IMG/VR virus record: IMGVR_UViG_3300042114_000044
Coordinates: 1 to 21,442 of that record
DNA: 21,442 nt
Source: a virus
Reading direction: 5' to 3' (one strand)
Below the pieces are notes generated by a model. It saw only the letters and a list, made by a program, of their open reading frames with translations. It had not been told where the DNA came from and did not search any database. This document shows positions 1,442 to 21,442 of this stretch, piece after piece (position 1 is the stretch's first letter; each line of letters begins with the position of its first letter). The position numbers and the translations under genes were made by a program.

Positions 1442-3078
1442 TAAACAATCCTCTCAATCTTTGTTAAATCTCTGACCTTCTTTAGTACCACAGTAGTGTC
1501 AAAATAATCCTGTTCAATCTCATTGTGGTGTAGTACTACAAAAGTATTCTTGTTACTTCTGTACTTATTCAAAATATCTTTAAGCACCTTAACCCCCTCT
1601 GTATCTAGTACAGATAGTAGCTCGTCAAATATAATAAGGTTAATACTTACATTTGTAAGTGCTTCTAGGGTTTCTACAATAGCCAAAAGGACTATAAGTG
1701 ATACTCTTGTCCTCTCCCCACTAGATAAATTCCCAAAGGCTATCTCAGCACCACTAGGGTTATTTATAGTATAAATAATCTTACCGTTTACCTCTTTTAC
1801 CTCAACTATTAACTTAATATCTAAGTACTCTAGTAGTCCTATAATTTTATTATTAAACGTATAGATAAAAGAAGCTACGTACTGTTTAGTTATACTACCT
1901 GAAGTAATTACTTGTAGTGCAGAGGTGATAAATACGTCCTTGTCTACATAGGTTACTATTCCATCTTCTATAGTTTTCTTTTTAAGCGCTAATAGCTCTA
2001 AGTCTTTCTTTATCTTAGAGAAGTTTTTATTTTTCTCTTCTAATAAAGAGACTTTATTAACTATAAGTTCTATTTCTCTTTCTAAAGCTTGGACTTTAGT
2101 TGTAAAAGAATACTCTATAGTGTGTAGGGTATTTTTAAGATTTTCAATATTCTCTGACATTACCTCTAGTTCTTTTTTTATTACACTACTTTGGTTATGT
2201 ATACCCTCAAGCGTATCTGAGGTTTCTTTTAGTATTGTACTAACCTCTGAGCCACATAGTGGACATTTACCTTTCTCTAGTTGTATCATTTGCTCTTTAA
2301 GAACACTGTAGCGTTCTTTTAGTTTGATAAGAGGTACTTTAGCACTTGTATATTCTAAAGTACTACTATCAATCTTACTTTTTAATACAACTATTTTATC
2401 TCGCTCTGTACCACTAAGTAACAAATTTAGTGCATCTAGTTTTGAGTATTTTTCAGCTACAAAAGGTGCTACATCAACAATTTCATATTGTGTTAAGGAA
2501 CTTATAGTTTTCTCTAAGTCAGAAGCTTGTTGTTGTAGAAACATTAAGTGTTTTGTGTTATCTTTCCTCTCACTTTTTAACTCTCTAAATAAGAAATTTA
2601 AAATGTCCACATCAAAGAACTTATGTAGTATGTTGTTTGTATCTGCTAAATCGAATACAGAGTTCATTGAGGATTGGGATAAGTATGTTAAAGATATAAA
2701 TGTACTGTAATCTAACCCTATAATAGATTGAATAAGTGCTAGTTGGTTTTTAATACCTTTTGGGGTTATGTCTATTCCGTTACGGGATAAATAAATATTA
2801 TTTCTCCCTCTATCATTCTCTATTTTGTAATTTACACTATTTACTTCTAGTAGCAGTGTAATTTTATATGGTTGATTGGTAACCTTATTGTAGGTATCCT
2901 CTATAACCCCATCAGCTTTTATACTTTTATTGTATAAACATTGAGCAATAGCAGAACACAAGCTTGTCTTCCCTTGCCCATTAGCACCTGATAATTTATG
3001 TAGCCCATTAACTAAATCATAGGTAATATAACCTATAGAGTAGTAATTCTCGATTATTAACGTTTTAAATAAAACCAT
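1441..3078 (-). CDS. SbcC/Rad50/gp46-like exonuclease ATPase subunit
   Basis: About 545 residues, close to phage T4 gp46 and much shorter than bacterial SbcC. Walker A GANGQGKTS lies at about residues 31-39. A central coiled coil carries a zinc-hook CPLC near residue 275. The ABC signature LSSGERTRVSL and Walker B LIIFDELLSVLD are near the C-terminus. The family forms an ATP-driven complex with SbcD/Mre11 that trims or opens DNA ends during recombination-dependent replication. The ATG at 3078 overlaps the SbcD stop as TGATG; I prefer it to the TTG one codon upstream because of that coupling. The stop overlaps the sigma-like start. Identification is firm; the choice between an SbcC-type and a gp46-type name is open. 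Confidence 0.93.
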   Translation of the reverse strand: MVLFKTLIIENYYSIGYITYDLVNGLHKLSGANGQGKTSLCSAIAQCLYNKSIKADGVIEDTYNKVTNQPYKITLLLEVNSVNYKIENDRGRNNIYLSRNGIDITPKGIKNQLALIQSIIGLDYSTFISLTYLSQSSMNSVFDLADTNNILHKFFDVDILNFLFRELKSERKDNTKHLMFLQQQASDLEKTISSLTQYEIVDVAPFVAEKYSKLDALNLLLSGTERDKIVVLKSKIDSSTLEYTSAKVPLIKLKERYSVLKEQMIQLEKGKCPLCGSEVSTILKETSDTLEGIHNQSSVIKKELEVMSENIENLKNTLHTIEYSFTTKVQALEREIELIVNKVSLLEEKNKNFSKIKKDLELLALKKKTIEDGIVTYVDKDVFITSALQVITSGSITKQYVASFIYTFNNKIIGLLEYLDIKLIVEVKEVNGKIIYTINNPSGAEIAFGNLSSGERTRVSLIVLLAIVETLEALTNVSINLIIFDELLSVLDTEGVKVLKDILNKYRSNKNTFVVLHHNEIEQDYFDTTVVLKKVRDLTKIERIV

Positions 3079-4040
3079 CAAGTACCCTTATACCTAGACA
3101 TAACATCCACTAACACACCATCACCGATGTCCATTATCTTTTCAGACAGCCCAAACATTTCCTTTGTGTGTTCTTTAAGTGTATCAAGTACACTAATCTT
3201 CCCATCTACTATAGTAACTTGTTCTGTTGTTTCTTGACTTATAATATTCTTTTCGTATACTACATTAAATCTAGGTAACTCAAGTGCTTGAAGCTCTTCA
3301 ATACTGCCTACCACCTTTATCTTAAATTTATCAGTGTTATTAAGCTTAAGCTTATGTAATTCAGAGGCTTTACACTCTAGTTTGAGCCTATTAGGTAGGT
3401 TAAGTTCTCGGTATTCAACCCCTAAAGTATCTGTACATACTATAAAGTACCCGTGAGATACATTTGTGGTGTACTTAAGCCCATAAGGCGTACCAGAGTA
3501 CCTAAAGTTATCATGAGGTGCATATGGATAGTGAATATCCCCGGATATAACTAAATCAAACTTTTCTGATAATATTTTAGTGGGGAACTCTTCTTTTATG
3601 TAGGGAGGAACTGTGCAACGAATATGTGTAAATAGTATAGTTTTTTTGTCTTTTAAGTTATGTATAACTTCAAATAAACTTTTTAGATTCTTATGCCCAC
3701 ATAATACAACGTGTGTCTTTCCTACTTCTATAATTTCTTTGTCACAATAAGTGTACCCAACCTCTGGAATGTAGTCATAGGTATACAAACGCTTATCTAT
3801 CGCTTCATGGTTACCTGAAATGATTTTCACAGGTACAGTAAATTTAGCAATGCTCTCGTAGAAGAGTTTAAGCTCTGGTAATGTTGGTTTAGGGTTATCA
3901 AAAATATCCCCACCTAGTACAACTAGGTCCACTTGTTGTTGTGCTAAAATATCAAACAACATAGAGAACCTATCTGCCTCCCACACCTCGTCTTTTGAAA
4001 GGTTTAGGTGTATGTCTGCTACAAATAAAATTTTAATTAT
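3078..4040 (-). CDS. SbcD/Mre11/gp47-like nuclease subunit, non-canonical start
   Basis: A calcineurin-like nuclease partner of the neighbouring SbcC-like ATPase. Metal-ligand motifs appear in order: VADIHL (D-x-H), LGGDIFDNP (G-D), SGNHEAID (G-N-H), FTHIR and SGDIHYPY (G-D-I-H). The first conventional start, GTG at 3986, would remove the essential D-x-H motif, which is encoded upstream in the same frame at about 4007-4018. The frame is open back to a TAA at 4068-4070 and holds no ATG, GTG or TTG before 3986. An AAGGGGGG Shine-Dalgarno-like run at 4049-4042 precedes ATA (4040) and ATT (4037); starting at ATA gives a normal-looking N-terminus, (M)IKILFVADIHL, and 320 residues. CTG at 4055 is another option. 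The stop overlaps the next gene. Confidence 0.88.
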   Translation of the reverse strand: MIKILFVADIHLNLSKDEVWEADRFSMLFDILAQQQVDLVVLGGDIFDNPKPTLPELKLFYESIAKFTVPVKIISGNHEAIDKRLYTYDYIPEVGYTYCDKEIIEVGKTHVVLCGHKNLKSLFEVIHNLKDKKTILFTHIRCTVPPYIKEEFPTKILSEKFDLVISGDIHYPYAPHDNFRYSGTPYGLKYTTNVSHGYFIVCTDTLGVEYRELNLPNRLKLECKASELHKLKLNNTDKFKIKVVGSIEELQALELPRFNVVYEKNIISQETTEQVTIVDGKISVLDTLKEHTKEMFGLSEKIMDIGDGVLVDVMSRYKGT

Positions 4041-4092
4041 GCCCCCCTTGTACAGATAATATGAATTTTACCAATTAACTATGTGAATATAG

Positions 4093-4227
4093 CTTAAAGT
4101 TTCTTTAAGGCACACCATTACTGCCCAAATGGTTTTAGGCACTGACGCATCACGACCCTCGTCTTAGGTTGTTAAAGTTACCTATAACTTCTTATAGTCC
4201 ACTTGTGTGCCTTAAAGAAACTTTAAG
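4093..4227. repeat. Long-range perfect 23-bp inverted repeat in non-coding region
   Basis: Positions 4093-4115 and 4205-4227 are exact reverse complements over 23 bp, separated by 89 nt. Each arm contains CTTAAAGTTTCTTTAAGG, itself able to form a small hairpin. The region between the 55-residue gene stop (4247) and the SbcD start (4040) carries no credible gene. The arm at 4205-4227, read leftward, is a version of the box seen upstream of other operons here and is followed by GTGGACTATAAG. The element could be a pair of regulator sites, a promoter region with a structured leader, or a replication-related site. The repeat is seen directly; its function is inferred. Confidence 0.8.
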
Positions 4228-4246
4228 GGAACGTAATCCCTTAAAG
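4221..4246 (-). terminator. Perfect 10-bp hairpin, possible terminator after the SSB operon
   Basis: CTTTAAGGGA and TCCCTTAAAG form a perfect 10-bp stem with a 6-nt loop, immediately after the TGA of the 55-residue gene. Leftward transcription would meet this hairpin and then TTTCTTT, a weak T tract. It overlaps the box-bearing arm of the 23-bp inverted repeat, so it may end the upstream transcript just before a new promoter. The hairpin is certain; the terminator role is a guess because the stem is A+T-rich and the T run is interrupted. Confidence 0.45.
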
Positions 4247-4414
4247 TCACCCAATGACTACACTACGTAATACTGGGATTTCTTGTATTGTTGCAACTAT
4301 ATTATTTTGTTTCATATACTCCATAGCGTCTTCTATAAAGTAGAAGATATATGTAATACCCTCTACGCCCTCTAAACAATACATTGTAGTAGCTACGCTA
4401 AATTCTCTAACCAT
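4247..4414 (-). CDS. Small hypothetical protein coupled to SSB gene
   Basis: A 55-residue frame starting MVREFSVATTMYCLEG and ending TGA at 4249-4247. Its ATG shares an A with the TAA stop of the SSB-like gene (TAATG), the same coupling seen at other gene joints in this window. It is mildly acidic with alternating hydrophobic residues and no cysteine cluster, membrane span or known motif that I can name. It is the last gene before the non-coding control region, and a 10-bp hairpin follows its stop directly. Function unknown. Confidence 0.6.
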   Translation of the reverse strand: MVREFSVATTMYCLEGVEGITYIFYFIEDAMEYMKQNNIVATIQEIPVLRSVVIG

Positions 4415-5235
4415 TAGTCAAACTTTATATCATCATCATCATCTGTTACGTAGTCTTTAGGCGCACTAGAACCAGCTTTTGGTGTACCCCCAGAGTTTAC
4501 AGATGCTACCCAATCATTATATGCTTTTATGTATTGTGGTGTAGTTGTTGTACTGTCACTAAGTTCTTTCATAGAACGTAAAGTACCTACAAACGTATCA
4601 GGGTTTACTGTAAAGTAAACAGTAGACCCATTTTTCTGTCTGTCTAGTGTTAGGCTCATAGTGTATAGAATACTACCGTTTTTAGGTAGTGTTTTTCTTT
4701 TCTGGTTAAAGGTGTACATAAACGCACCCTTGGAGTACAAGATATAAGGTTTAGGTGTTGGAGATAATTCACTCCATGCGAGAACCAACATAATCTCTTG
4801 TAGTTTGATTTTATCATCTACATCATCTTTTTTAAGCTCTGCAACAGATACACCACTTGATAAATCAAATGCGGAGCTTCTATGTGTTAGGGGAAAAATA
4901 TTAGAACTTACTACAGATTTTTGAGTAGTGCTATCATACTTAGAGTACTGAAAATCACTTGCTAATACAATAAGATTAATAGTACCCCCGAGTACTGTAA
5001 CCCCTGTTACGTTACCTTTATCGTCTTTCTGAATATCAGAAATCCACTCACCAAAATTAGCTAATTCCATGTCTCTATCATAGTTAATTTTAAGTGCTGG
5101 AAATGGTAAGCTTGAGCCACCACCACCTTTATTCGCCCCAACTAGTGTTTGTGCATCTGCTTGTGAGAAACCAATAGCCATAAGTCCTTCGACTGATAAC
5201 TCTACTGCTACATCTGTACTTTTATCTTTTGCCAT
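4414..5235 (-). CDS. Probable phage single-stranded DNA-binding protein
   Basis: A 273-residue soluble protein with a beta-rich middle, a Gly-rich patch near residues 37-41 (GGGGSS), a Ser/Thr/Gly-rich linker and a strongly acidic tail ending DDDDDIKFD. Acidic C-terminal tails are typical of bacterial and phage SSBs, where they recruit replication partners. I recognise no classical OB-fold signature by eye, so the call rests on the tail, overall composition and placement among flap nuclease, primase, helicase and SbcCD genes. It has its own leader and promoter-like box (about 5338-5371), consistent with a need for high expression. The ATG follows AAAAGGATTTAAAA. It could be another abundant DNA-binding early protein. 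Confidence 0.6.
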   Translation of the reverse strand: MAKDKSTDVAVELSVEGLMAIGFSQADAQTLVGANKGGGGSSLPFPALKINYDRDMELANFGEWISDIQKDDKGNVTGVTVLGGTINLIVLASDFQYSKYDSTTQKSVVSSNIFPLTHRSSAFDLSSGVSVAELKKDDVDDKIKLQEIMLVLAWSELSPTPKPYILYSKGAFMYTFNQKRKTLPKNGSILYTMSLTLDRQKNGSTVYFTVNPDTFVGTLRSMKELSDSTTTTPQYIKAYNDWVASVNSGGTPKAGSSAPKDYVTDDDDDIKFD

Positions 5236-6791: not shown

Positions 6792-7666
6792 AGTAATTCC
6801 TTTGTATAATACTCGTTAATATCTTTAGCCTCAGACCCATAGAAGCCCCCCAAAGGGGCATAAGACCTACCTAAAGTAACTTTTAAATCTTCAATACCTT
6901 TTAATGCTTTAAACAGCGCTAACTCTGCAACTTGACCTGGAGTATCTTTATCCATACAAAGTACCACCTCTTCTACTCCACAAGATAAAAGTTTAGCTAT
7001 TTTTGTAGAAGTAAAATGGTTTGCTACCCCAAAATTACATACACTAGGGATACCCATTTGCCATAACGTAATACAGTCTATAATACCTTCTACAAGTACT
7101 ACAGTATTACTTTTAGTAGCTTTAAGTACATCAAGTGGGTATAGAGTCTCTCTGTTATTAAACCCTTTTGAGTGTAAGTATTTTGTACTACACTCAAAGT
7201 TAGCTCTAGTTGTAAAACCCACAACTACATTATTTTCATAGAAGGGGAATACAACCCTGTCTGTATATTTCCCGGTATTACATGTAAACATACCAAAAGT
7301 ACTTAAAGTTTCTTCTGATAGCCCTCTATAACCAGGAACTACACCCCCGTCATTAACAGGCAATCCAGACTCTTGTAAGCCAATTTCTTGTTTCTTTAAA
7401 GAGTCTTTTAATAGCTTATATTTAGAGGCTCTATTTATCTGCTCTAAAGCTTCCTCATCAAGTACCCCATCTACCCAGTATTCTTTATGTAACGTAAACC
7501 CACAGGTAAAACACTTTGAGTACCCTGTATCAGTATTAACAGACATTGATGGTGTGGAGTCGTTATGAGAAGGGTTTAGGCATTGACAAAGTAAGTAATG
7601 AGTGCCTGTTCTCTTCCAAGCTACATTAAGTAGCTCAAGTTTATTTAAAATATGTTGAGTAAACAT
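6788..7666 (-). CDS. DNA primase, zinc-finger plus Toprim type
   Basis: A 292-residue DnaG-type primase. The N-terminal zinc site is formed by C29, H34, C52 and C55 (CLNPSH, then CFTC), followed by the Toprim core: LVEGIIDC at 191-198 (catalytic E193, D197) and CMDKDTPGQ at 237-245 (D239, D241). The spacing C-x4-H in the zinc site is longer than the usual C-x2-H. It is shorter than bacterial DnaG and lacks an obvious helicase-binding C-terminal domain, as in many phage primases. Its start overlaps the helicase stop as TAATG, so helicase and primase are translated from one message and probably form the primosome together. Confidence 0.92.
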   Translation of the reverse strand: MFTQHILNKLELLNVAWKRTGTHYLLCQCLNPSHNDSTPSMSVNTDTGYSKCFTCGFTLHKEYWVDGVLDEEALEQINRASKYKLLKDSLKKQEIGLQESGLPVNDGGVVPGYRGLSEETLSTFGMFTCNTGKYTDRVVFPFYENNVVVGFTTRANFECSTKYLHSKGFNNRETLYPLDVLKATKSNTVVLVEGIIDCITLWQMGIPSVCNFGVANHFTSTKIAKLLSCGVEEVVLCMDKDTPGQVAELALFKALKGIEDLKVTLGRSYAPLGGFYGSEAKDINEYYTKELL

Positions 7667-9828
7667 TACATAACCAAGCCCGTTGCATGAAACTTCATAT
7701 GCTCAAAGTCTGTTTGAAGGACATACGTCTTCTTTTGCGAGTGCCTTGACTTTATGGTAAACATCCTAGCTAAGTTATTCTTAGCCTCATCTTCATTTTG
7801 GTGTAAGTGAAACCATAAAGACGCAGTAAAATTCAACTCTTGGGCACCTCTTGCAGTTACATTGACATTACCGTTCTTCTCAGTAACCTCATTAATTTGA
7901 ATAGGCGTAAGAATACAAATACCTAACTCAAGGGTTAATCTGTGTAAGTCTTTTACAAACTTACTAAGGAACTTCCACTGCTCATCGTAGTTCTCATTTT
8001 CAACAATCTGTAAGTAATCTATAACTACTAGTTGTAGCCCAGAGGTATGTTCATCTCTAATTAAATCCATAATTCTTTGAGCATCTACACCACAATTTAC
8101 CATCTTAAACTTATTAGGTCTTGAAAATATTTCAGATTTCTTAGTGTTATAGTAAGTTACCTCACGTTCATTTAGGTCTGTATAAATGTCTTGGAATGGT
8201 ACATGTAATTCACATGATAGCATTCTAGCCATTGCCTCATTTTGAGATAACTCTAGGTTGAGGTAAAGCACATCATTACCTTGCTTGTAACTGTGTAACG
8301 CTTGGTTCATAGCCATCACAGACTTACCACAGTTACCTGTTATAAATATACTATTGTTTCTACGAGCTACAAAGAAACTTGATGGTACCTCAAAACAGTA
8401 CATAAAACCATCTATAGGTATGAACTCGCTTACTGTTAGGTTTGAGGTAGTTCTCCCCATGAATGAGGTACCAAGTACCTCGTAACTTATAGACTTCCTA
8501 ATATACTCTTTTCCACCAGTCATGTACCTCTGCCCAACCCTATCATCTACGCAAATAGTAGCTATACGGTTACGTGTAGTAGTAAAAGCGTATTGTATAA
8601 AGTCCGTATTCCTTTTATCCGTAGAGTAAAACGACACACTGTCATTACCCCTATGGTCAAAACTACCGCCCCAATAAGGAACTTCATCTACAATAACTGC
8701 TAATTGCTCAGGTGTAGCACACCAAAAACTATCGAAACTTTTGGTTATGATAGGTACTGTAAAATTATAGGTATGGTACCCCTCTGTTGCACCCACAACC
8801 TTTCTATACTGTATCCCTGCCACTTGCAGTAATCTCTCTAATCTTTCTTTTTTTGCATTTTTCTTAAGATTTACCCCACCCCACCCAGTTTTCATTGATG
8901 TTATTGGTATATGTCCATCAGCTATAAACGCCACCATTACACGTATCTGTGCGTCTGTAAGTGGTATCCCCTCTGTATTACTAGGTACACTAAACATTGT
9001 AGGTAGGTTAACATGGAAGGGTCTAGTCCTTACAGCGTCTGCAAATTCTTTACCTGTTTTAATTAATAGGTTTTCTCTAGCAACATAAGGAACTCTATGT
9101 TCCTCAGATACTACCATATCTACCCACTTACTCTTAAAGTGGTACATCTTATCATAAGGTAACTTAATGTATCTCGTAGGCTCTACAAATTCTGTAGCAC
9201 CACCTTCTGACCACTGTAACACTTCATCCCCTACTGTGTAGTCTGAGAATTTCTTCCACCCACTACGAGTTAAATACTCAGTATCTTTATCCACACACCC
9301 AGACTTAGCCGAGATTAAAGTAACCCCCTGTAACTTATTTGTTACATCAGAGATACAAGAGTCTAACATCATAATGTTATCTATAGAAAACTCAGCCTCA
9401 TTAGCGTTCACAACCCTATGCTCAACATCACTTGTAGAAACTAAAAGTTCCTTAAGTAGTCCTCTAGTTTTTACTAAATCTCTGTCCGCTACAAGCCCTA
9501 CAAGCTCCTCTATCTTACTATCTAGTAGTTTGATACCTCTATCTTCTTTAAGACCATCTAGAACTGCGTCAGGAGACTCAGTGACACCTTCAGGTAACCC
9601 CCCAACATAACCACAGTATATTTTAGCTTTCTCAGGTTCAATTTGTGTGTTTATAGTTGCTTGGATAACCTCAATAGACGGTAATGAACTATACCTTTCT
9701 TGGTATGCTTTTATGAGCTTATATATAAATCTGGGGTTTCTTGAAGTAAACATCTCCACGGTTAGGTCTGTAATTTTTAATTTACCTTCAATTACAGAAG
9801 CTATTGCAAGTTTCTCAAAGTTTATCAC
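7666..9828 (-). CDS. Replicative DnaB-like helicase with intein in the P-loop
   Basis: A 720-residue precursor; removal of a 322-residue intein leaves 398 residues, typical of phage hexameric helicases. The N-extein holds a DnaB-like N-terminal domain (residues 1-177) ending SAKSG. The C-extein starts CGKSVMAMNQAL, so splicing rebuilds Walker A AKSGCGKS. Later motifs are VLYLNLELS (H1a), LVVIDYLQIV (Walker B, H2), ILTPIQIN (H3 sensor Gln), RGAQELNFTASLW (H4) and KSRHSQK (arginine-finger region). It unwinds DNA ahead of the fork with the adjacent primase. The start is GTG behind GAGGGGG, overlapping the preceding small gene by 14 nt. Without splicing the ATPase site would be broken. Confidence 0.93.
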   Translation of the reverse strand: MINFEKLAIASVIEGKLKITDLTVEMFTSRNPRFIYKLIKAYQERYSSLPSIEVIQATINTQIEPEKAKIYCGYVGGLPEGVTESPDAVLDGLKEDRGIKLLDSKIEELVGLVADRDLVKTRGLLKELLVSTSDVEHRVVNANEAEFSIDNIMMLDSCISDVTNKLQGVTLISAKSGCVDKDTEYLTRSGWKKFSDYTVGDEVLQWSEGGATEFVEPTRYIKLPYDKMYHFKSKWVDMVVSEEHRVPYVARENLLIKTGKEFADAVRTRPFHVNLPTMFSVPSNTEGIPLTDAQIRVMVAFIADGHIPITSMKTGWGGVNLKKNAKKERLERLLQVAGIQYRKVVGATEGYHTYNFTVPIITKSFDSFWCATPEQLAVIVDEVPYWGGSFDHRGNDSVSFYSTDKRNTDFIQYAFTTTRNRIATICVDDRVGQRYMTGGKEYIRKSISYEVLGTSFMGRTTSNLTVSEFIPIDGFMYCFEVPSSFFVARRNNSIFITGNCGKSVMAMNQALHSYKQGNDVLYLNLELSQNEAMARMLSCELHVPFQDIYTDLNEREVTYYNTKKSEIFSRPNKFKMVNCGVDAQRIMDLIRDEHTSGLQLVVIDYLQIVENENYDEQWKFLSKFVKDLHRLTLELGICILTPIQINEVTEKNGNVNVTARGAQELNFTASLWFHLHQNEDEAKNNLARMFTIKSRHSQKKTYVLQTDFEHMKFHATGLVM
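8332..9297 (-). mobile_element. Intein with LAGLIDADG endonuclease in helicase
   Basis: A 322-residue in-frame insert at precursor residues 178-499. Splicing features: Cys1 with block A CVDKDTEYLTRSGWKKF, block B VVSEEHRVPY (SxxH in place of TxxH), block F FMYCFEVPSSFFVARRN and the terminal ITGN followed by +1 Cys. The penultimate residue is Gly instead of the usual His. In the middle, VMVAFIADGHI matches the first LAGLIDADG helix, and VPYWGGSFDHRG may be a degenerate second one. Inteins self-excise post-translationally; the nested endonuclease would home into intein-free alleles. The insertion site is the Walker A loop, a classic highly conserved target. Boundaries follow from the extein reading and are firm. 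Confidence 0.93.
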
Positions 9829-13919: not shown

Positions 13920-15193
13920 TTGCACTCCTTTAAAATTGTTTCAAGTGTGTCAGGCTTCTCTTTATCTATTCTTATTTCTTTAAACCTAGGTAGGAATAGA
14001 AAGTTTTGTCCGTATTTATCTTTTTGTACTTCGTTGTATAATACCTCAATGCACTTACCATTCATAGAAGCTTTCCAAAATATCTCCCTATCCTCATCAG
14101 TAAAACCACCACCTACATTAACGGTAAGCTCTTCACATAAACTCTGACAAACTAAACCACCTAAGGAGTTTCCGTTTTTATGCTCGTACTTATCTATAAC
14201 ACTAAGCGTGCAAGAATTAATAGCTTTTAACTTAAGCCAATTCTGAGACCTTTTAGGCTCATAAAGAGACATTGGGTCTTTTATAATAATACCCTCTTCC
14301 CCGTGAGCCCTATAGGCTTTATAAATCTTAAGTACTTCATCAGTAGTAGATGTTTCAATAGTATCTGCTACCTGTATACGTTTTAATTTATTACTAAGTA
14401 CCATAGCCCCCAAATTTAGTAATCTCTCTTTACAAGGTACAGTAAACTTTCCCATTTTATACTCTATAAGAGGTAGTAAATCAAAAGCCTTAAATACTAA
14501 AAGCGCATCAGTAATCTCTTTATTGCCTTTTATAAGAGAGTTACATATACCAGAGGTAGAAGTCCTTGTAGTTGATATAAGCTCCCCATCTAGTACAAAA
14601 TCACTTTGTATCTTTGATAACTCTTTAGTTATATTTAGTAGTGGTATAGGGTTACCGTTCCTTGAGAAACAGTTAATACTTAGCCCATCTTTTATAATAA
14701 GACAACGGTAACCATCATACTTTTTCTGTACTAAAAGAGGCTTATCTAAATCTTGAGTTTCATAGGGGTCGCAAGTCATAACTGCAAATTGTGGGATAAA
14801 GTCCTCTTCAAAAGCTTTGTTAATATTCTTTGCTTGCATCCCAATTCTTAAGTCTTTTCTGAGAATATCGTAGTATATAGACTGTTGGGGTTGGTTGCAA
14901 CTCTCTAAAAAACTTACAACTTCTTCACGTATCTTGTTGTTTACAGAAGTTAACATAAGCATCTTTAAGATATTGCAAAATTCATAATGTTTCTTATAAA
15001 AATACCCAGTAACCTCAGATTTCTTGAAGTCTAGTGACTTAATACCATAAACATTAAAAGTGTTAAAAGCACAATAAAGTAACGTCCTAACACCTTGAGA
15101 ATCATTCTCTCTTAATATCTGAATTTTATCATTTGTTTTAGTTACTTTTGAAATCTCTATAATAGTTGCAATTTCATTTAAACACGAACTCAT
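13916..15193 (-). CDS. ATP-dependent DNA ligase
   Basis: A 425-residue ligase. Motif I KKYDGYRC (nucleophile K158), motif III FVLDGELIS (199-207), IIIa KAFDLLP (235-241), motif IV EEGIIIKDP (299-307) and motif V NWLKLKAI (318-325) are all in order, followed by an OB-fold-like C-terminal domain. The 130-residue N-terminal alpha domain resembles the larger T4/archaeal-type DNA-binding domain more than the minimal T7 form. It seals nicks after flap removal. The ATG follows AAGGAGGATAA, an excellent ribosome-binding site, and the gene is the first of the ligase-polymerase operon after a 211-nt intergenic region. Confidence 0.95.
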   Translation of the reverse strand: MSSCLNEIATIIEISKVTKTNDKIQILRENDSQGVRTLLYCAFNTFNVYGIKSLDFKKSEVTGYFYKKHYEFCNILKMLMLTSVNNKIREEVVSFLESCNQPQQSIYYDILRKDLRIGMQAKNINKAFEEDFIPQFAVMTCDPYETQDLDKPLLVQKKYDGYRCLIIKDGLSINCFSRNGNPIPLLNITKELSKIQSDFVLDGELISTTRTSTSGICNSLIKGNKEITDALLVFKAFDLLPLIEYKMGKFTVPCKERLLNLGAMVLSNKLKRIQVADTIETSTTDEVLKIYKAYRAHGEEGIIIKDPMSLYEPKRSQNWLKLKAINSCTLSVIDKYEHKNGNSLGGLVCQSLCEELTVNVGGGFTDEDREIFWKASMNGKCIEVLYNEVQKDKYGQNFLFLPRFKEIRIDKEKPDTLETILKECN

Positions 15194-15243
15194 TTATCCT
15201 CCTTTATGTCTACATAAATATACTTAAACTTTCTTCTTTTTGG

Positions 15244-15277
15244 ATAAGGTAACACTGGCACCTTAAGAACTTTAAGA
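15244..15277 (-). promoter_or_regulatory. Promoter-like box upstream of ligase operon
   Basis: Leftward, TTCTTAAAGTTCTTAAGGTG (about 15274-15255) resembles the conserved box found before the SSB and helicase operons, followed by CCAGTGTTACCTTATCC. The -10-like part (TTACCTTAT) is poor compared with the other two sites. It sits between the RNR stop and the ligase start, where a promoter is expected. The 15194-15404 intergenic stretch holds this box, the hairpin at 15294-15316 and no convincing gene. Confidence 0.42.
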
Positions 15278-15293
15278 ACCCTAATGTTTAATA

Positions 15294-15316
15294 GAAGGGA
15301 CTTTGAGTCCCCTCCG
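15294..15316 (-). terminator. Hairpin downstream of RNR, possible terminator
   Basis: Leftward, GAGGGGACT, loop CAA and AGTCCCTTC form a 9-bp stem including one G-U pair, about 90 nt past the RNR stop. It is followed by TATT, not a strong T tract. Position and stem stability fit a terminator of the RNR transcript or an mRNA 3'-end stabiliser. The hairpin is seen; function is inferred. Confidence 0.5.
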
Positions 15317-15404
15317 TTAAGCACTAAACACTTTATACTTTCCAAGTATATCGAATAGTTGGTAATTCCTCAAATACTCAAGGAAACTGCAAGAATCATT
15401 CATA

Positions 15405-17695
15405 CTAAAACACAGGACATGCGCCACCGGCACACTCTTGAGTCTCCATTTCATTATCTTTAGAGTCTTTAATTCCACTAAAGTTTACTGGTTGTATATT
15501 CTTAGTATACTCCTCGTATGCCTCCTTAGTACAAACCTCTTGTGGTAGGTACAGGTACCCCAAATCCATTGCTGTCTTCGTAGCATCCATACGGTATAAG
15601 AAACTTACCCCTACATAATGTTCCCAATTAGCAAGAAGCCAATCAATAATACCAGGAACCTCATCAGGACTATAAGAAATTGTATTAGACACATTTTGTT
15701 GACACCAATGCACCTGATATTTCTTATACCTCTCCAACTGTGTTATAGCAGATTCTAGGTTAACCTCGATAACATCACCATTTGGTTTTACAACTTTATC
15801 AAACTCTACATGCTCCCACTTAATAGGAAACTTCACTATAGTGCCTTCTGTGGGTTGGTTGGGGTTATCTCTTACTTCATACCCAGCATCTTTAAGCCTC
15901 GGAAGTATTGGGTCATTCTTACCAAAATTTATGTAATTCATAATATACTTCGCAAGGGGCTTGTGTACCCCCTCTGTTGTCATCATGACTTTAGATAATG
16001 TACCGCTTGGTTTTATTGTAGTGACATTTTTGGGTCTCTGCATGTTTAACTCATCAGCCATAGTATACGCCGACATTGTTGCAACTCTTTGCATTACTTG
16101 GAGGTCATACTCGGATAAGTCATCCCTTTGGGCAATGCCTGTTAGTCCAACACCACATAAGCGCAAAAACTCGTTATTAAGATGCCATGCCTCCTGTAGT
16201 ACCTCATCTTTAAGGTTTACACATGTTTGTCTATAGTTAGCTCGTGCAGCTAGCTCAAGAGCCCTGTGCAACCCAACGGTATCCCCCCGGAACTTTGCAA
16301 CATCAACTTCTTGAAGATTACAAAAAGTTTTATTGCCTAAAAGTATCTCACAGCACGGATTACTCCCTTGAAACCAAGGGGCTCTTTTCTTTGCTGTTTC
16401 GCCATTAACGACATATTAGTCCAGTACTTTCGTACTGGTATGGACTATCTCTTCGTTAGTGTTACTAACGTCTACTGTTTCCACTGTCTTACCAATAAAC
16501 AGCGTACTTCCCTACAAAGGGAATAGTCTCTACACCTTCAAGTAACATGTATATACAATGTTACTCGCTTGGTTCGGGATTAGCATATCATTAACTATGC
16601 CTGGTTTTATTAATTATACCCGGTTATAGCTTAATTATGAATTAGCGTTCCCCGATGCTATTACGCTATGTTTTCTAGTGCGTAATAACATGCTTGGTTA
16701 GCATTAAATAGATAAGAGCCCGATGTTGACCCTGGTTCTGAACCGCCTGCTTCTTGCATTAACATAAATATATGTTCAAGTTCCTGCTTAGTAGGTCTCT
16801 TCTCAAAAATAAGACTATTGTTAGACTGACCTCTTTGTATGTTATCTACCCAAAAGTCCCTCTTGGCAACACTAAACTCTTTCCACTCTGGTTGCCCATA
16901 CTCAAATAACGCAATTTGGGCACTTCTGCGACTAGATAGGATTGTACCAAGCCAATTAACAACATCTAGGATATCTATACGTGTTAGAAGTTGCCCAGAA
17001 CGCCTACTCATAATCTTAGCAATAGCCTCATATGCTACTGAAATTGCTTGGTCTCCAGAACTAATCCACCCATACCCCTTAAGCCTAGCACCAGCAGGAC
17101 GTAACTCTGAAAAATTAAACACTAATTTTTTAGCGTCATACTTACCTGCAAGTAATTTTCCTATACTTTTAGCCCAAGCCTCTGCAGAGTCCCCAACACG
17201 TATTGTCCAAACACCATCTATAAAAGTTTCTAGGTTTTCTTCACAACCACCCTTCTCGGTCCTAGTAGTTCTAATAACTTCTATGTCCTTTATTGGTTTA
17301 AAGAACCCGTTAAGTGTCCCTACTATTGGTCGGAAACCAACACCACAACCCTGCATTAACAACCATAGCACATCTACAACATCATATACAGTTTCTACAT
17401 TTGTATAGCTACAGTTAAACTGTGAAGCCTCTCTTCTTTTAGCTACATCTGTATTTCCTAACCACAAAGTCCTACCACTAGCAGAAACCTTCCTATCAAG
17501 CATAGTTTGTTTATACTCTTCAAGTTCTGCTTTTTCTTTTTGTGAAAGTTTGTTGCCTTTTGCTCGCTCCCATAACCATTGTTGGTGCTGTTTTACTCTC
17601 TCGCATATTGCACCCCAATCTTCAAATTGTGTCTCATCTTCATCTAGTGGTCTTGCATACGTTCTACGTACTACCACATCTGCTCTTGTTACCAA
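15405..17695 (-). CDS. Adenosylcobalamin-dependent ribonucleotide reductase (class II), intron-split
   Basis: Two exons, 17695-16729 and 16411-15405, join to 657 residues. Cysteines match the monomeric RTPR-type class II enzyme: C95 in QFNCSYTN, C342 in SNPCCEI and C353 in TFCNLQEV (11 apart, as in the RTPR 408/419 pair), plus a C-terminal C649/C654 pair in ECAGGACPVF that regenerates the active site. The enzyme reduces ribonucleotides using coenzyme B12 without oxygen or a second subunit. The splice joins GGG T to TC GTT, giving SEPGFVNGE. Start: TTG behind AAAGGAGATTAAGG; the N-terminus VVVRRTYARPL is typical of the family. The apparent stop in exon 1 (16661) is inside the intron. It would need cobalamin from the host. 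Confidence 0.93.
16412..16728 (-). ncRNA. Group I self-splicing intron in RNR gene
   Basis: A 317-nt insert with the hallmarks of a group I intron. The 5' exon ends in U and pairs with the guide: AGGGU with GCUCU leaves a U-G wobble at the splice site (P1). P7 strands GACTAT (16528-16523) and ATAGTC (16448-16443) are exactly complementary, in typical AGAGACTA and GATAGTCC contexts. A P9-like hairpin CCAGTAC-GAAA-GTACTGG lies at 16421-16438, and the intron ends in G (16412). Other perfect stems include CGTTAGT/ACTAACG, GTAACAT/ATGTTAC and TTCCC/GGGAA. No endonuclease frame lies inside. Boundaries are fixed by restoring the RNR frame. Confidence 0.9.
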
Positions 17696-17697
17696 CC

Positions 17698-17808
17698 TTA
17701 ATCTCCTTTTAAAATTACTAAAAATGTCCCATCATCTCGTAATGTTGCCCCTAATATTTTGGATGACTCAAAAATATTCAAATCTTTTATACCATCTAGT
17801 ATAACCAT
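17698..17808 (-). CDS. 36-residue hypothetical peptide before RNR
   Basis: A short frame, MVILDGIKDLNIFESS to the TAA at 17700-17698. Its ATG shares the A of the preceding TGA (TGATG), and its final codons carry the AAAGGAGAT ribosome-binding site of the RNR TTG start. Mixed beta-like composition (TFLVILKGD at the end) and no motif. The coupling to both neighbours supports translation. It may also act chiefly as a leader that helps RNR initiation. Function unknown. Confidence 0.45.
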   Translation of the reverse strand: MVILDGIKDLNIFESSKILGATLRDDGTFLVILKGD

Positions 17809-17912
17809 CAGGAATCCTTCAGCTTAGTGTTATCTTTAATACTACTGTAGCCATCAGCATCTAAAGGTAGTGTAACTACCCCTACTGTTGCTCTAAGTAA
17901 ACTTTCAAACAT
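17808..17912 (-). CDS. 34-residue hypothetical phage peptide
   Basis: MFESLLRATVGVVTLPLDAD begins the frame, which ends TGA at 17810-17808. A strong GGAGG lies 6 nt before the ATG. The opening 'MFESL..A.VGVV.LP' resembles a small protein I recall from many phage genomes near nucleotide-metabolism genes, usually longer; this is memory and unchecked. The short length may mean a truncated version. It is coupled through TGATG to the 36-residue peptide. Function unknown. Confidence 0.55.
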   Translation of the reverse strand: MFESLLRATVGVVTLPLDADGYSSIKDNTKLKDS

Positions 17913-17947
17913 TTAAAACCTCCATAATTAAATCTTTAGGTAAGAAA

Positions 17948-18046
17948 TTACAGCTCATCATACCAATTCCTTTCAAGGTACCCCATACCTACCATTATAA
18001 GTATTAGGGAAATACTTATAATACAAGCTACATATGCTTCAATCAT
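17948..18046 (-). CDS. 32-residue single-span membrane peptide
   Basis: MIEAYVACIISISLILIMVG is a nearly uninterrupted hydrophobic span, followed by a charged/aromatic tail (YLERNWYDEL), so the product is predicted to be a small inner-membrane peptide with one helix. The ATG overlaps the ThyX TGA by 8 nt; there is no clear Shine-Dalgarno, so expression would depend on coupling to ThyX. The codons for the span include a perfect 12-bp palindrome. It may be a real membrane microprotein or a by-product of the palindrome. Phage small membrane peptides include lysis and superinfection proteins, but nothing here assigns a role. Confidence 0.4.
   Translation of the reverse strand: MIEAYVACIISISLILIMVGMGYLERNWYDEL
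17994..18022. repeat. Perfect 12-bp inverted repeat with 5-nt loop
   Basis: ATTATAAGTATT (17994-18005) and AATACTTATAAT (18011-18022) are exact reverse complements around AGGGA. The repeat sits between the ThyX and RNR genes and inside the 32-residue membrane-peptide frame. Both arms include TATAAT-like sequence on one strand or the other. It could be a protein-binding operator, an mRNA hairpin that sets relative expression of ThyX and RNR, or a weak promoter region. Structure seen; role inferred. Confidence 0.7.
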
Positions 18047-18497
18047 TTGGTTTTTGTATAAGTTCTTTTAAATTCGTGGGTAGCGTATTAAGCATACAAC
18101 TAGCTACTTCCTTTATGTGGTAGTGAGCAGATTTGGCAATGCGTAAGTTAAGAAAGTTTTGTAGACTTGTATAGGGGAACCTCACTACCCATTTGTACTG
18201 ATATGCTTGTGGTAGCATAAGAGACACTATATCATTGGATTTCTTATTATTAATTGCTTCTACAATTATTAATCTCCAATCCTCTAACTTTGTATCTACC
18301 TCCGCATCTCCAGTTTTTTCAAAAACAACTTCCCCTTTGTTTAGGGTGTACCTAGAGGATTTACATGCATAAGATGCCTCTCTGTGTCGTGTCATTTCAA
18401 GTAGTACTTTTGTAGAGGCAACTATCTCAAATATAAAATCAGTAGCTAACCAAGTACCACAGTATTGTATTGGAGTATTTATTAAACGAACTTCCAT
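18039..18497 (-). CDS. ThyX (flavin-dependent thymidylate synthase) catalytic C-terminal half
   Basis: A 152-residue protein with the ThyX signature RHRx7S (TRHREASYACKSSRYT, R37-H38-R39 to S47) and the C-terminal ThyX block LMLPQAY, then SLQNFLNLR. ThyX makes dTMP from dUMP using FAD and methylenetetrahydrofolate. It lacks the first 60-70 residues of ordinary ThyX, including the HxSxLEH helix region: after MEVRLINTP it jumps to FIFEI, just before the RHR motif. Normal ThyX is about 210-250 residues. KSSRYTL and SLQNFL recall Helicobacter/Campylobacter ThyX from memory. The ATG lies inside the HNH gene end (16-nt overlap) behind GTAGGGGGTTTAT. The missing half may be supplied by the two upstream ThyX-like proteins. 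Confidence 0.85.
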   Translation of the reverse strand: MEVRLINTPIQYCGTWLATDFIFEIVASTKVLLEMTRHREASYACKSSRYTLNKGEVVFEKTGDAEVDTKLEDWRLIIVEAINNKKSNDIVSLMLPQAYQYKWVVRFPYTSLQNFLNLRIAKSAHYHIKEVASCMLNTLPTNLKELIQKPND

Positions 18498-19411
18498 ATA
18501 AACCCCCTACAATGTTTATGTTTTCTGTTTAAGGTGTCAGACAGTTGCCCACAACTTATGTATAATCCTTTACTTTGAAAGGACTCAATACCTTCCTTCA
18601 AAGAGGAAAAAGTATGTAACAGCTCACCCTCCATAGAATAACACTGTATTGCTTTCATACCTAATGATTTACCTTTCTTCCATGCAACCTCCCCTAGTAC
18701 GCTATAACTGGGGTATTCATTCTCTGAATATGAACACCACTCTAGGTTATCTAATAAGTTATTAGTTGTAACCTCATCTTTATGGTTTACTACTTGGTTT
18801 GTAAATTCGGGTACAAAACTTTCCATCATAGCTCTATGTTGACTTTTATGCTTCTTACCTAGTATATACTCTGGGTACCCGTGTGGATTTATAAAAGGCT
18901 TTATAAGTTTAGGACACATAAGTTTATAAATATGATGATTTACACGAAATACCTGACTTTGTTGTGTAATTACATAATCAGAGTCTCCTATTTGTTTGTA
19001 TTGCACAAGATACAACATATTTTCGGGTAATAAAGACAATAATACCCTAGGAAGTGGTTTAAAACATAAAATCCTTGCATTTATAGATAGTAAAACCTTT
19101 TTATCAGTAACCCATGTAACTACAATATGGGTATCTATACTTGCTACCCCATTTATTAAGTTACGTAAATGTTTTTTACCACCCTCTATTAATGTAATTT
19201 CATAAATAAAGGTAGTAAACTCTAAAACGCTAGAGTGTTTTAGTGTCAAAGCGACTTTCTCTATTCTTCTAATTTTATCCTCTTGGGTGCAATATGGTCC
19301 TTTATCATAACACTCCCCAATAGCTATATCTGTATACATATCTGTAGGGGTATTAATAAGTGCGATATCTAACACATATTGTTTATTTGTAATAGTAGTT
19401 TTATTCTCCAA
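18482..19411 (-). CDS. ThyX-like N-terminal domain fused to HNH homing endonuclease
   Basis: A 309-residue chimera. Residues about 14-72 resemble a ThyX N-terminus (LINTP, then GECYDKG, then LKHSSVLEFTTFIYEI) without a following RHR motif. Residues 73-131 are of uncertain origin. From about 132 the sequence is an I-HmuI-type endonuclease: a NUMOD4-like start (YKQIGDSDYVITQQSQVFRV), the HNH core HRAMMESFVP to VNHKDEVTTNNLLDNLEWCS (H210, N222) and a C-terminal NUMOD1-like DNA-binding repeat ending GFIWKF. An internal ATG at 19018 could start the endonuclease alone. The TTG start at 19411 follows AAAGGATAAAA and overlaps the upstream gene by 11 nt. Whether the fused protein is one working enzyme or an insertion by-product is unclear. 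Confidence 0.8.
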   Translation of the reverse strand: MENKTTITNKQYVLDIALINTPTDMYTDIAIGECYDKGPYCTQEDKIRRIEKVALTLKHSSVLEFTTFIYEITLIEGGKKHLRNLINGVASIDTHIVVTWVTDKKVLLSINARILCFKPLPRVLLSLLPENMLYLVQYKQIGDSDYVITQQSQVFRVNHHIYKLMCPKLIKPFINPHGYPEYILGKKHKSQHRAMMESFVPEFTNQVVNHKDEVTTNNLLDNLEWCSYSENEYPSYSVLGEVAWKKGKSLGMKAIQCYSMEGELLHTFSSLKEGIESFQSKGLYISCGQLSDTLNRKHKHCRGFIWKFV

Positions 19412-19925
19412 TTTTATCCTTTACTGCGTAAATAACATCTAAGTAACGTCTAGGTGTGGTATGCATAAGGGAGGATACTAAGTTTTGTAGTTGAGTATCT
19501 CCACTTATAGTGGAAATGTTTAGTATATACATTAATGTTTGTAATGAGAAAGTACACACCCCCTCCTCACAATACTCACTACTGTCCTCTTTATTGAGGG
19601 GAGCACTTACATTACAAAAATAACCACTTTTTAGTAACATTATTACATTTCTTGGTATGTCCTTTATGTAGTAGGATAGTTGAATGTGCTCTAAGACTGA
19701 GTGGTGAAAGTGGACGTGGGCTAATTTATATAGGAGGTCAGACGAGAGAATATCCTCGTCTTTCGTAGTGTGTATGAAGTGCTCTGGGTTTTGCTTAAAA
19801 AACTTTATAACAGAGTTCTCGCTTGACTCAAAACTATCATAACAAACCCTCCCACCAATTTCAGCTACTGCGAGTGGTGTACAATAAAGCAAGGTGGCTT
19901 TAGGAGTCTTGTGTGCAACAATCAC
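19401..19925 (-). CDS. ThyX-family protein lacking the RHR motif
   Basis: A 174-residue protein whose first 100 residues follow the ThyX N-terminal half: YCTPLAVAEIGGRVCYDSFE (14-33) and HHSVLEHIQLSYYIKDIPRN (74-93, matching the HxSxLEH segment). Where ThyX continues with RHRx7S it has LLKSGYFCNVSA, and a shortened tail with TFSLQTLMYILNIS may correspond to the ThyX C-terminal helix. It therefore keeps the N-terminal flavin/folate-side motif but not the catalytic RHR arginines. It probably pairs with the RHR-bearing protein encoded two genes downstream, or is a regulatory paralogue. The GTG start overlaps the upstream small gene by 26 nt with only a weak AGGTGA site. Confidence 0.65.
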   Translation of the reverse strand: MIVAHKTPKATLLYCTPLAVAEIGGRVCYDSFESSENSVIKFFKQNPEHFIHTTKDEDILSSDLLYKLAHVHFHHSVLEHIQLSYYIKDIPRNVIMLLKSGYFCNVSAPLNKEDSSEYCEEGVCTFSLQTLMYILNISTISGDTQLQNLVSSLMHTTPRRYLDVIYAVKDKIGE

Positions 19926-20148
19926 TATCAGTCACCTGTACTTCCGTTTTATATATATTGTGTGAAACCTCTAAAGCATCCTCAATGTTTGCTAAAGCAG
20001 CAACAAGCCCAGCACGTATAGTAGCATCCCCAAATGTACAAGCACGTAAGAAACTTACAAAATTATCACAGTAGTCGTGTGCTGTACAATCCTCAGAGAA
20101 CTCAATACACAATTTTTGCCCATAGGCATCTTGAATAAAAATAACCAT
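19900..20148 (-). CDS. Small acidic hypothetical protein
   Basis: An 82-residue acidic protein, MVIFIQDAYGQKLCIEFSED onward, with a central FVSFLRACTFGDATIRAG segment and a Cys/Asp/Ser-rich tail. The design (short beta N-terminus, then a helix with FLR-x2-x-F) resembles small phage proteins of unknown function found near nucleotide-metabolism genes, judged from memory. The ATG has AAAGGAAACAA ahead of it. It follows the ClpP-like gene after a 50-nt gap that contains TATAAC-like sequence, possibly a weak promoter. Function unknown. Confidence 0.6.
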   Translation of the reverse strand: MVIFIQDAYGQKLCIEFSEDCTAHDYCDNFVSFLRACTFGDATIRAGLVAALANIEDALEVSHNIYKTEVQVTDSDCCTQDS

Positions 20149-20198
20149 TTGTTTCCTTTAAATTTTAGTAGTGTTATAAATGTTATACGAAATTTTTT

Positions 20199-20780
20199 CT
20201 AACTTTTCGCACGTTTTCTAATAGGAGTCCAATTTTTTAATCTATTTTGTATTTGCTCGTAATCAAAGTAGAAATCAGCACCACTATCCATAGATTCAAC
20301 CTCAGAATCTGTCAAGAACCCTTGGTATAATTGCTGGATAATATTCCTAAAATACCTATTATCAAACTCAGCTTTTGACATAATATCAGGCTTCTTCATA
20401 TAACCAGAACCCCCCTGAGAGTATGTGTGGTTCATCATATAGCCTAGTGGACACATACGAATTTCATCACAAGATAGCATCAGCATTGCACCTGCTGAAC
20501 TAGCAAAAGATACTTGAGCAACTGTGTGGGCTTTAGTTCGCATAAGTGCGTTAAACAACACGAGGAATCCTGTAAAATCCCCACCATCACTTGCAATATC
20601 TAAAGTTACTACATCATTTGCTGTAGCTGTATCTAACATATCAACGTGTTCTTTATACTCAGAGGGCATCTCAATGTAATCATACAGCTTAATAGTATAG
20701 TGATTACTTAGATACGCTACCCTGAAATTTGGATACGGGGGTTGCTGTTCCTCAACTTGCTCTATTTCCGATTCTCCCAT
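20199..20780 (-). CDS. ClpP-like serine protease
   Basis: A 193-residue protein of the ClpP/crotonase fold, near bacterial ClpP length. IASDGGDFTG (62-71) is the oxyanion-loop SxGG region, SFASSAGAMLML (91-102) holds the nucleophile (S95 by alignment to the ASMGA motif), and MMNHTYSQGG (115-124) holds the catalytic His118. The Asp is probably in the C-terminal DSGADFYF segment. Phage ClpP-like proteins are often capsid maturation proteases, but here the neighbours are PhoH and nucleotide genes, not structural genes, so proteolysis of host or phage regulatory proteins is possible. ATG follows AGGAGGT. Substrate and ATPase partner are unknown. Confidence 0.85.
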   Translation of the reverse strand: MGESEIEQVEEQQPPYPNFRVAYLSNHYTIKLYDYIEMPSEYKEHVDMLDTATANDVVTLDIASDGGDFTGFLVLFNALMRTKAHTVAQVSFASSAGAMLMLSCDEIRMCPLGYMMNHTYSQGGSGYMKKPDIMSKAEFDNRYFRNIIQQLYQGFLTDSEVESMDSGADFYFDYEQIQNRLKNWTPIRKRAKS

Positions 20781-20788
20781 AATACCTC

Positions 20789-21442
20789 CTATTTAAAAAT
20801 GTCGTTAACAAACGAGGTTAACTCTGAACGGTAAATATTTTGTAGATTTACATACGAGACTAGGGGATTATTCTTTAAGTGGGGTAAAAGTTTCTTGTAC
20901 CCCTCACGACCCCTCCAAGCACCATAAGCTTGGTTAACATCTAGTATAAGAACTAACTTACTGCCATTAGCTGTTCGTGTCATTACTTGTTTTAGGGTGT
21001 CTACATCTAAAAGCTGACAATTTCCACAAACTACTGCTTTACCCTTCCCCCTAACTAATATATTCCCATCTGGAACTGTAACACAATACACATCCCCCGT
21101 GTAGGGCACATTATTAATGTCGTAGTATTGGGTGGTATGTGTATCTTGAGTAAATTGTATAAACACTCTATATACAGTATTAGGAGACTTATTGCCTGGT
21201 AATATAGATACCCTACTAGGGTATCCTGCTATAATAGCCACCGCCTGTATAAAGTCTGCTTGGTCTTTACTACATGTTGTATACCCCCCACTAATGGGCT
21301 TTTGGGGGTGTATGAGCCCACCCCACTTCATTGCTTCTGCTATAATAGCCTTAGCTTTAGGTTGCGACAGGTTACTTAATGTAAAAGTATCCCATAAATT
21401 TCCTTTTTCTTTTGTGTTCTCCCCAAGAATTCCATCAGAACA
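20789..21442 (-). CDS. PhoH-like ATPase, intein-interrupted, N-terminus beyond right edge
   Basis: The frame is open to the right edge. The 76-residue C-extein starts CQLLDVDTLKQVMTRT and continues SKLVLILDVNQ and NIYRSELTSFV, matching PhoH-family segments after Walker B (D-E-x-Q, then T-R, G-D-x-x-Q and R-S). PhoH proteins are P-loop NTPases with suggested RNA helicase or RNase links and are common in phages. The N-extein with Walker A and the DE of Walker B lies outside the window. An ATG at 21331 is inside the intein and is not the gene start. The gene ends 8 nt before the ClpP-like gene. Confidence 0.85.
   Translation of the reverse strand, partial: CSDGILGENTKEKGNLWDTFTLSNLSQPKAKAIIAEAMKWGGLIHPQKPISGGYTTCSKDQADFIQAVAIIAGYPSRVSILPGNKSPNTVYRVFIQFTQDTHTTQYYDINNVPYTGDVYCVTVPDGNILVRGKGKAVVCGNCQLLDVDTLKQVMTRTANGSKLVLILDVNQAYGAWRGREGYKKLLPHLKNNPLVSYVNLQNIYRSELTSFVNDIFK
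21020..21442 (-). mobile_element. Intein C-terminal part within PhoH-like gene
   Basis: At least 141 residues of intein precede the C-extein. The splicing end is block F YTGDVYCVTVPDGNILVRG and the terminal VVCGN followed by +1 Cys at 21019-21017. The penultimate residue is Gly, as in the helicase intein. AMKWGGLIHP and YTTCSKDQADFIQAVAIIAG parallel the helicase intein's VPYWGGSFDHRG and FYSTDKRNTDFIQYAF, so a related endonuclease-like domain is present. The insertion point appears to be inside the Walker B DE-CQ motif. The N-terminal splicing block is outside the window, so completeness cannot be judged. Confidence 0.85.

Follow-up and report, generated by a model that had tools for sequence, protein, structure and literature searches.

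Two adjacent, overlapping genes of a viral contig probably encode one subunit each of a hetero-oligomeric flavin-dependent thymidylate synthase (ThyX), derived from thyX duplication and complementary loss. To judge from the sequence, the ThyX divided between their products, P2 and P3, seems to be a genuine enzyme of two subunits that recurs in other phages, and not a disrupted gene. The contig, IMGVR_UViG_3300042114_000044, is a fragment of 21,442 bases (35% GC), analysed over its full length and referred to below as the window. Three consecutive overlapping genes with ThyX sequence had been noticed in it from the DNA alone, and reading frames, strand and motifs are as described. The features of the region are listed below.

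19401–19925, minus strand: P1, 174 aa, predicted third ThyX-fold protein, of lobe type; HHSVLEH at 19706–19686; RHR and NxR lost.
18482–19411, minus strand: P2, 309 aa, TTG start; putative ThyX lobe subunit fused to an HNH endonuclease.
19001–19411, minus strand: ThyX part of P2, aa 1–137 (alignments, AlphaFold model, matches to ThyX structures).
18485–19000, minus strand: HNH homing-endonuclease-like part of P2, about aa 138–309 (HNH_3, phrog_59, L003–L005).
18039–18497, minus strand: P3, 152 aa, putative RHR subunit of ThyX; RHR at 18389–18381; PYT at 18176–18168.
18498–18512, minus strand: Shine-Dalgarno-like AGGGGG, read from the sequence, preceding the P3 ATG within the end of P2.

P1 and P2 overlap by 11 nt, P2 and P3 by 16 nt; the overlaps and the ribosome-binding-like sites are consistent with coupled translation. 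The three genes are neighboured by those for a B12-type ribonucleotide reductase, a Clp-like protease and PhoH. Beyond P1–P3 no Thy1 match, and no separate full-length thyX, was found in the 21,442-base contig. The ribonucleotide reductase gene is broken after GGSEPG and continues at NPCCEILL about 300 nt on (window 16420–16723, minus strand). Rfam identifies group I introns in or near this gene in the relatives L012, L063 and L066, and none in the window. Intein-like inserts, read by eye only and having ends such as VRGKGKAVVCGNC, occur in DnaB-like helicase and PhoH-like frames (window 7666–9828 and 20789–21442, minus strand).

P3 is matched by the Pfam Thy1 profile (PF02511) with 65.8 bits over profile positions 58–184. 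It features RHR at aa 37–39, within an RHRx7S motif that includes S47, and the dUMP arginine (R119); NAR is replaced by PYT (aa 108–110). Size and RHRx7S had been correctly predicted, but the N-terminal half is not missing altogether. In alignments to intact relatives the beta1 strand is kept, the internal HxSxxE lobe is deleted, and the remainder from beta2 onwards, RHR and the C-terminus included, is kept.

P2 is recognized in Pfam as HNH_3 only (26 bits, cut-off 24.8). Its C-terminal part matches phrog_59 (E 3.6e-17), and L003–L005 are 36% identical to P2 over aa 138–231; on these matches it is classified as an HNH domain of the homing endonuclease type. The HSSVLEF motif ahead of it had been assigned to ThyX, and the ThyX origin of the P2 N-terminus is borne out by phmmer against an intact phage ThyX, L091 (E 7e-21). 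The ThyX part features, in this order, beta1, the HSSVLEF lobe (S61, E64), beta2, a hairpin, SINARIL (N111, R113) and the C-terminal LPENMLYLV, which is followed by the HNH part. Relative to intact ThyX L083–L091, about 43 columns, comprising RHR and the dUMP loop, are deleted after beta2; the alignment resumes before SINARIL, and another 14 columns, which include the dUMP arginine, are then missing. By alignment, P2 covers almost all of ThyX as far as LPENMLYLV, the RHR region excepted. AlphaFold modelled aa 1–137 alone with pLDDT 84.7 and pTM 0.79. Good matches of the model are ThyX-family structures only (Z about 7–10.5, the next unrelated structure at about 4), a result not wholly independent, as ThyX rows were present in the input alignments. 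Since both proteins can be aligned to intact L083–L091, P2 and P3 are read as two whole ThyX copies with complementary internal deletions.

The search of related phages for intact thyX, suggested in the original prediction, was successful. P3 was aligned with ordinary ThyX sequences, and a scan with this alignment identified L083–L091, eight of which are whole single-chain ThyX of 184–190 aa with all motifs; L089 is cut by the contig end. Their RHR halves are 60–65% identical to P3, and their N-terminal halves match P2. In trees of the RHR part, P3 sits within the L083–L091 clade with support 99–100; in a short tree of the lobe, the rows nearest to P2 are L091, L085 and L084. None of P1, P2 and P3 reaches the equivalog cut-off of TIGR02170 (NCBIfam thyX; 87.9 bits): the scores are 22.6 for P1, none for P2 and 54.9 for P3, against 104.4 for intact L091. 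No single protein of the three combines RHRx7S, HxSxxE and NxR, as P3 has RHRx7S only, P2 HxSxxE and NxR only, and P1 HxSxxE only. When P1, P3 or the Clp-like neighbour was used as a single protein to scan viral contigs, there were no matches, and P2 brought up HNH relatives only; the exact 8-residue patterns used in these scans are too strict. A scan with the ribonucleotide reductase returned 59 phage loci, in which ThyX was found nearby only as a rearranged form (L066) and a two-domain chain (L059).

P1, with its 174 aa, HHSVLEH and no RHR, is as predicted. It scores 25.7 bits against Pfam Thy1 (profile positions 9–71), narrowly above the cut-off, so that in the proposed HMM check P1 and P3 are both matched by the family, and P2 is assigned to it by phmmer. 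SLQ stands in place of NAR. The order of elements, short hairpin included, is that of lobe subunits, and P1 scores 26.9 bits against a profile of four lobe subunits in a seven-sequence test. The AlphaFold model (pLDDT 74.5, pTM 0.68) is closest to Helicobacter pylori ThyX (Z 13.3); only ThyX-family structures match well, unrelated ones scoring about 4, and here too ThyX rows in the input alignment make the match not wholly independent. The phmmer neighbours of P1 are ThyX lineages other than the clade of P2. These data describe P1 as a third, diverged lobe-type paralogue devoid of RHR and NxR. As the FAD arginine is missing too, it is probably not the main partner. P1 may represent a lobe subunit of older date, take part in mixed assemblies, or pair with something beyond the contig, and could perhaps serve as an alternative or regulatory partner.

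The lobe/RHR division is not confined to the window. Separate lobe and RHR genes were found in four further phage contigs, and both modules are fused in one chain in another lineage.

L112: lobe and RHR genes at 3571–4011 and 4001–4579, nothing between.
L118: lobe and RHR genes at 2866–3222 and 3914–4420, an HNH endonuclease gene at 3277–3924 between (phrog_374, E 6.6e-43).
L154: lobe and RHR genes at 3331–3921 and 3923–4393, nothing between.
L213: lobe at 3601–about 3984, RHR frame at 3968–4573, nothing between.
L109/L110: both modules fused in one 319-aa chain, at 3515–4474.

The three-gene arrangement of the window was found once. Neither Pfam nor PHROG has a family that matches the lobe subunits of L112 and L118. 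In L154 the lobe glutamate is lost (HFSILAH), as is one arginine of RHR (RHE), and the pair may be a decaying example. In L109 a second short RHR-half ThyX fragment (4481–4600) lies right behind the fused chain. Homing-endonuclease insertion and duplication had been suggested as the source of the split. Duplicated copies are indeed present, but only two of the five two-gene cases have an HNH endonuclease where the parts are separated, and the endonuclease may have come in after the split instead of producing it.

The active-site residues are sorted in the same way across these cases. RHR, HxSxxE and the dUMP arginine are each present in 98/98 intact ThyX rows, NxR in 96/98. Lobe parts keep NxR in 6/6 cases (SINAR, STNLR, SSNAR, INAR, STNLR, TTNMR) and lack RHR in all six. 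RHR parts have lost NxR in five of six (PYT, GYS, SHD, NAE, TYS), the exception being L118, the RHR subunit of which retains NAR; for the loss of NxR in RHR parts versus intact ThyX, Fisher's test gives p 1.3e-6 with rows taken as independent. P2 (S61, E64, N111, R113) and P3 (R37–R39, S47, R119) jointly hold every conserved FAD/dUMP residue.

The pairs differ in their nearest intact lineage, so several independent origins of the splits are likely. In RHR-part trees L112 branches beside L124 (support 92), L154 near L116/L135 (87), and L118 near L092/L126 (88). In the short lobe tree, the L112 lobe is nearest to L124, and the L213 lobe to L074 (98). L118 has its best identity with L115 in both parts (69% in the RHR-part comparison, 75% in the lobe comparison). 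The different nearest lineages make one ancient origin for all splits less likely; forcing all splits into one clade costs 63 log units and is not rejected (AU p 0.13).

In ordinary ThyX, one FAD is contacted by three subunits: according to a review of crystal structures (PMC6514825), RHR comes from subunit A, Ser50 and Arg165 (H. pylori) from subunit B, and subunit C adds another contact. In the 3ah5 alignment numbering, Ser50 is the serine of HSSTLEH and Arg165 the arginine of NAR, and P2 has equivalents of both. The dUMP of subunit C stacks on the flavin. In the proposed scheme an ordinary single-chain thyX was duplicated, and each copy then lost complementary parts, so that P3 would supply the A/C-side parts of the FAD site and P2 the B-side parts. 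A P2:P3 assembly, 2:2 in its simplest form, would replace the homotetramer, with association, stoichiometry and activity all predicted. Half of the usual sites would be complete in such a heteromer and the other half wholly abolished, so that either copy would have been free to lose what its partner provides. Because placing P3 as A and P2 as B would rebuild one site type, the losses seem permitted by partnership and not by simple decay. The hetero-oligomeric ThyX proposed in the original prediction is thus supported by recurrence, complementary active-site residues and published inter-subunit geometry. The idea of separate subunits for the N-terminal and RHR halves holds as to a division in two parts; the parts seem to result from complementary internal deletions, not from a clean N/C split.

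P1–P3 might instead be decaying remnants of a thyX broken by the HNH gene, with dTMP provided by the host or by another gene. This is unlikely. The HNH part is fused to P2, two conserved residues are gone in L154, and the P3 branch (0.89) is longer than those of most intact relatives (about 0.15–0.50), as decay would have it. The ThyX tail of P2 is weakly constrained as well (pN/pS 0.69–0.99). In contrast, pN/pS against intact relatives is 0.36–0.46 for P3 and 0.28–0.60 for the P2 lobe, the reference for intact ThyX pairs being 0.27–0.30; synonymous sites are near saturation and the P2 and P3 values rough, and they suggest purifying constraint on both P3 and the P2 lobe. Moreover, all three frames are open despite the 35% GC of the genome. 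The losses are complementary, not random. They are seen again in L112, L213 and L118, of which two lack an HNH at the junction, and also in the fused chain.

Still less probable is that a working full-length thyX resides elsewhere in the phage genome, P1–P3 being regulatory or moonlighting paralogues. A contig of only 21,442 bases, and a P1 without RHR and NxR, would fit. The contig has no other Thy1 match, however, and P3 retains RHR, serine and dUMP arginine, which is unexpected for a mere regulator. The adjacent pair recurs in other phages, with records up to 137–155 kb and one lobe match in each.

One ThyX gene split by an intron or intein carrying the HNH frame is scarcely credible, even with an HNH frame in the middle and group I introns known from in or near the ribonucleotide reductase genes of relatives. 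Rfam gave no intron match at the gathering score in the window, nor any up to E 5 in 15000–21442, and P3 starts from an ATG of its own, preceded by a ribosome-binding-like site. Above all, this reading is largely refuted by the overlapping content of P2 and P3: beta1, beta2, the pre-NAR stretch and the C-terminus are in both proteins, which overlap rather than abut, and their codons differ. An assembly artefact joining pieces of different thyX genes, conceivable for a metagenomic contig seen in a single copy, is just as improbable, the same architecture being present in contigs of other samples that were assembled separately.

The two-subunit P2–P3 enzyme can be compared with known systems. 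Known ThyX (PF02511, TIGR02170; H. pylori 3n3y/3ah5, T. maritima TM0449) resembles P2 and P3 taken together in fold, RHRx7S, HxSxxE, NxR and dUMP arginine, but is a one-chain homotetramer; here the residues are divided over two chains, neither of which passes the NCBIfam ThyX cut-off. The ThyX of L083–L091 are direct relatives of the P2 N-terminal part and of P3, but single chains. Phage ThyX with a C-terminal HxSxxE-type lobe (MW202615, PQ867841, PQ867852; L077–L080) likewise have the lobe away from its beta1–beta2 place, and an N-terminus resembling that of P3. They are still one chain, and the rearrangement, read from motifs only, is an analogy to P3 only. P3 as the front part of a ThyX with its lobe moved to the C-terminus was a candidate reading, dropped because its closer relatives are ordinary-order ThyX. 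Genes annotated as thymidylate synthase, with the RHR half first and an SPxEH lobe last, occur in L006 (10030–10815), L007 (8954–9877), L008 (9699–10613) and L077–L080; by motif order these are apparently circularly permuted ThyX, and no paper stating so was found. Long chains with ThyX-like sequence reside in L075 (520 aa, two Thy1 matches) and L076 (440 aa, one); the tandem L075 product has two Thy1 modules, as here, but is not divided as lobe and RHR. ThyX genes in L080 (1105–2772, minus strand) and L159 (2690–4495) have in-frame intein-like inserts in or beside the RHR motif. The ThyX of L184 (3938–5298) is broken between profile columns 101 and 100 by about 620 nt, in which Rfam recognizes no intron.

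The closest solved ThyX is that of H. pylori, related ThyX are carried by isolated Campylobacter phages, and genome-contig matches are to Sulfurovum and Campylobacteraceae metagenome-assembled genomes only; a host in the Campylobacterota is our guess from these three observations. For the thyX of Campylobacter jejuni, complementation of an E. coli thyA deletion is reported to require microaerophilic conditions (PMC3498832). In the phylum of the Campylobacteraceae genome, 181 of 249 genomes matched the lobe profile; among the matches listed all frames measure at least 204 aa, and none is a short-frame lobe match.

Obligate heteromers can arise through complementary loss in paralogues, with half of the symmetric shared sites kept. 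The same half would be kept here, and for ThyX no such case was found in the literature searched. No described split ThyX had been named in the original prediction, and the search, many subscription journals being outside its reach, likewise returned no description of a split, permuted, heteromeric or endonuclease-interrupted ThyX. A wider reading is tenable, if tentative: phages may have repeatedly and independently made ThyX an obligate two-subunit enzyme by complementary deletion, and re-fused the parts in at least one lineage, P1 joining the complex here as a third ThyX-fold subunit.

ThyX is essential in many bacteria, and the sources consulted describe it as a homotetramer. If P2 and P3 are its two subunits, the pair would offer a clean way to ask what each side of the shared ThyX site does, and would represent the repeated evolution of a homomer into an obligate heteromer. 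It would also mean that enzyme parts are hidden among phage proteins of unknown function, such as the lobe subunits of L112 and L118.
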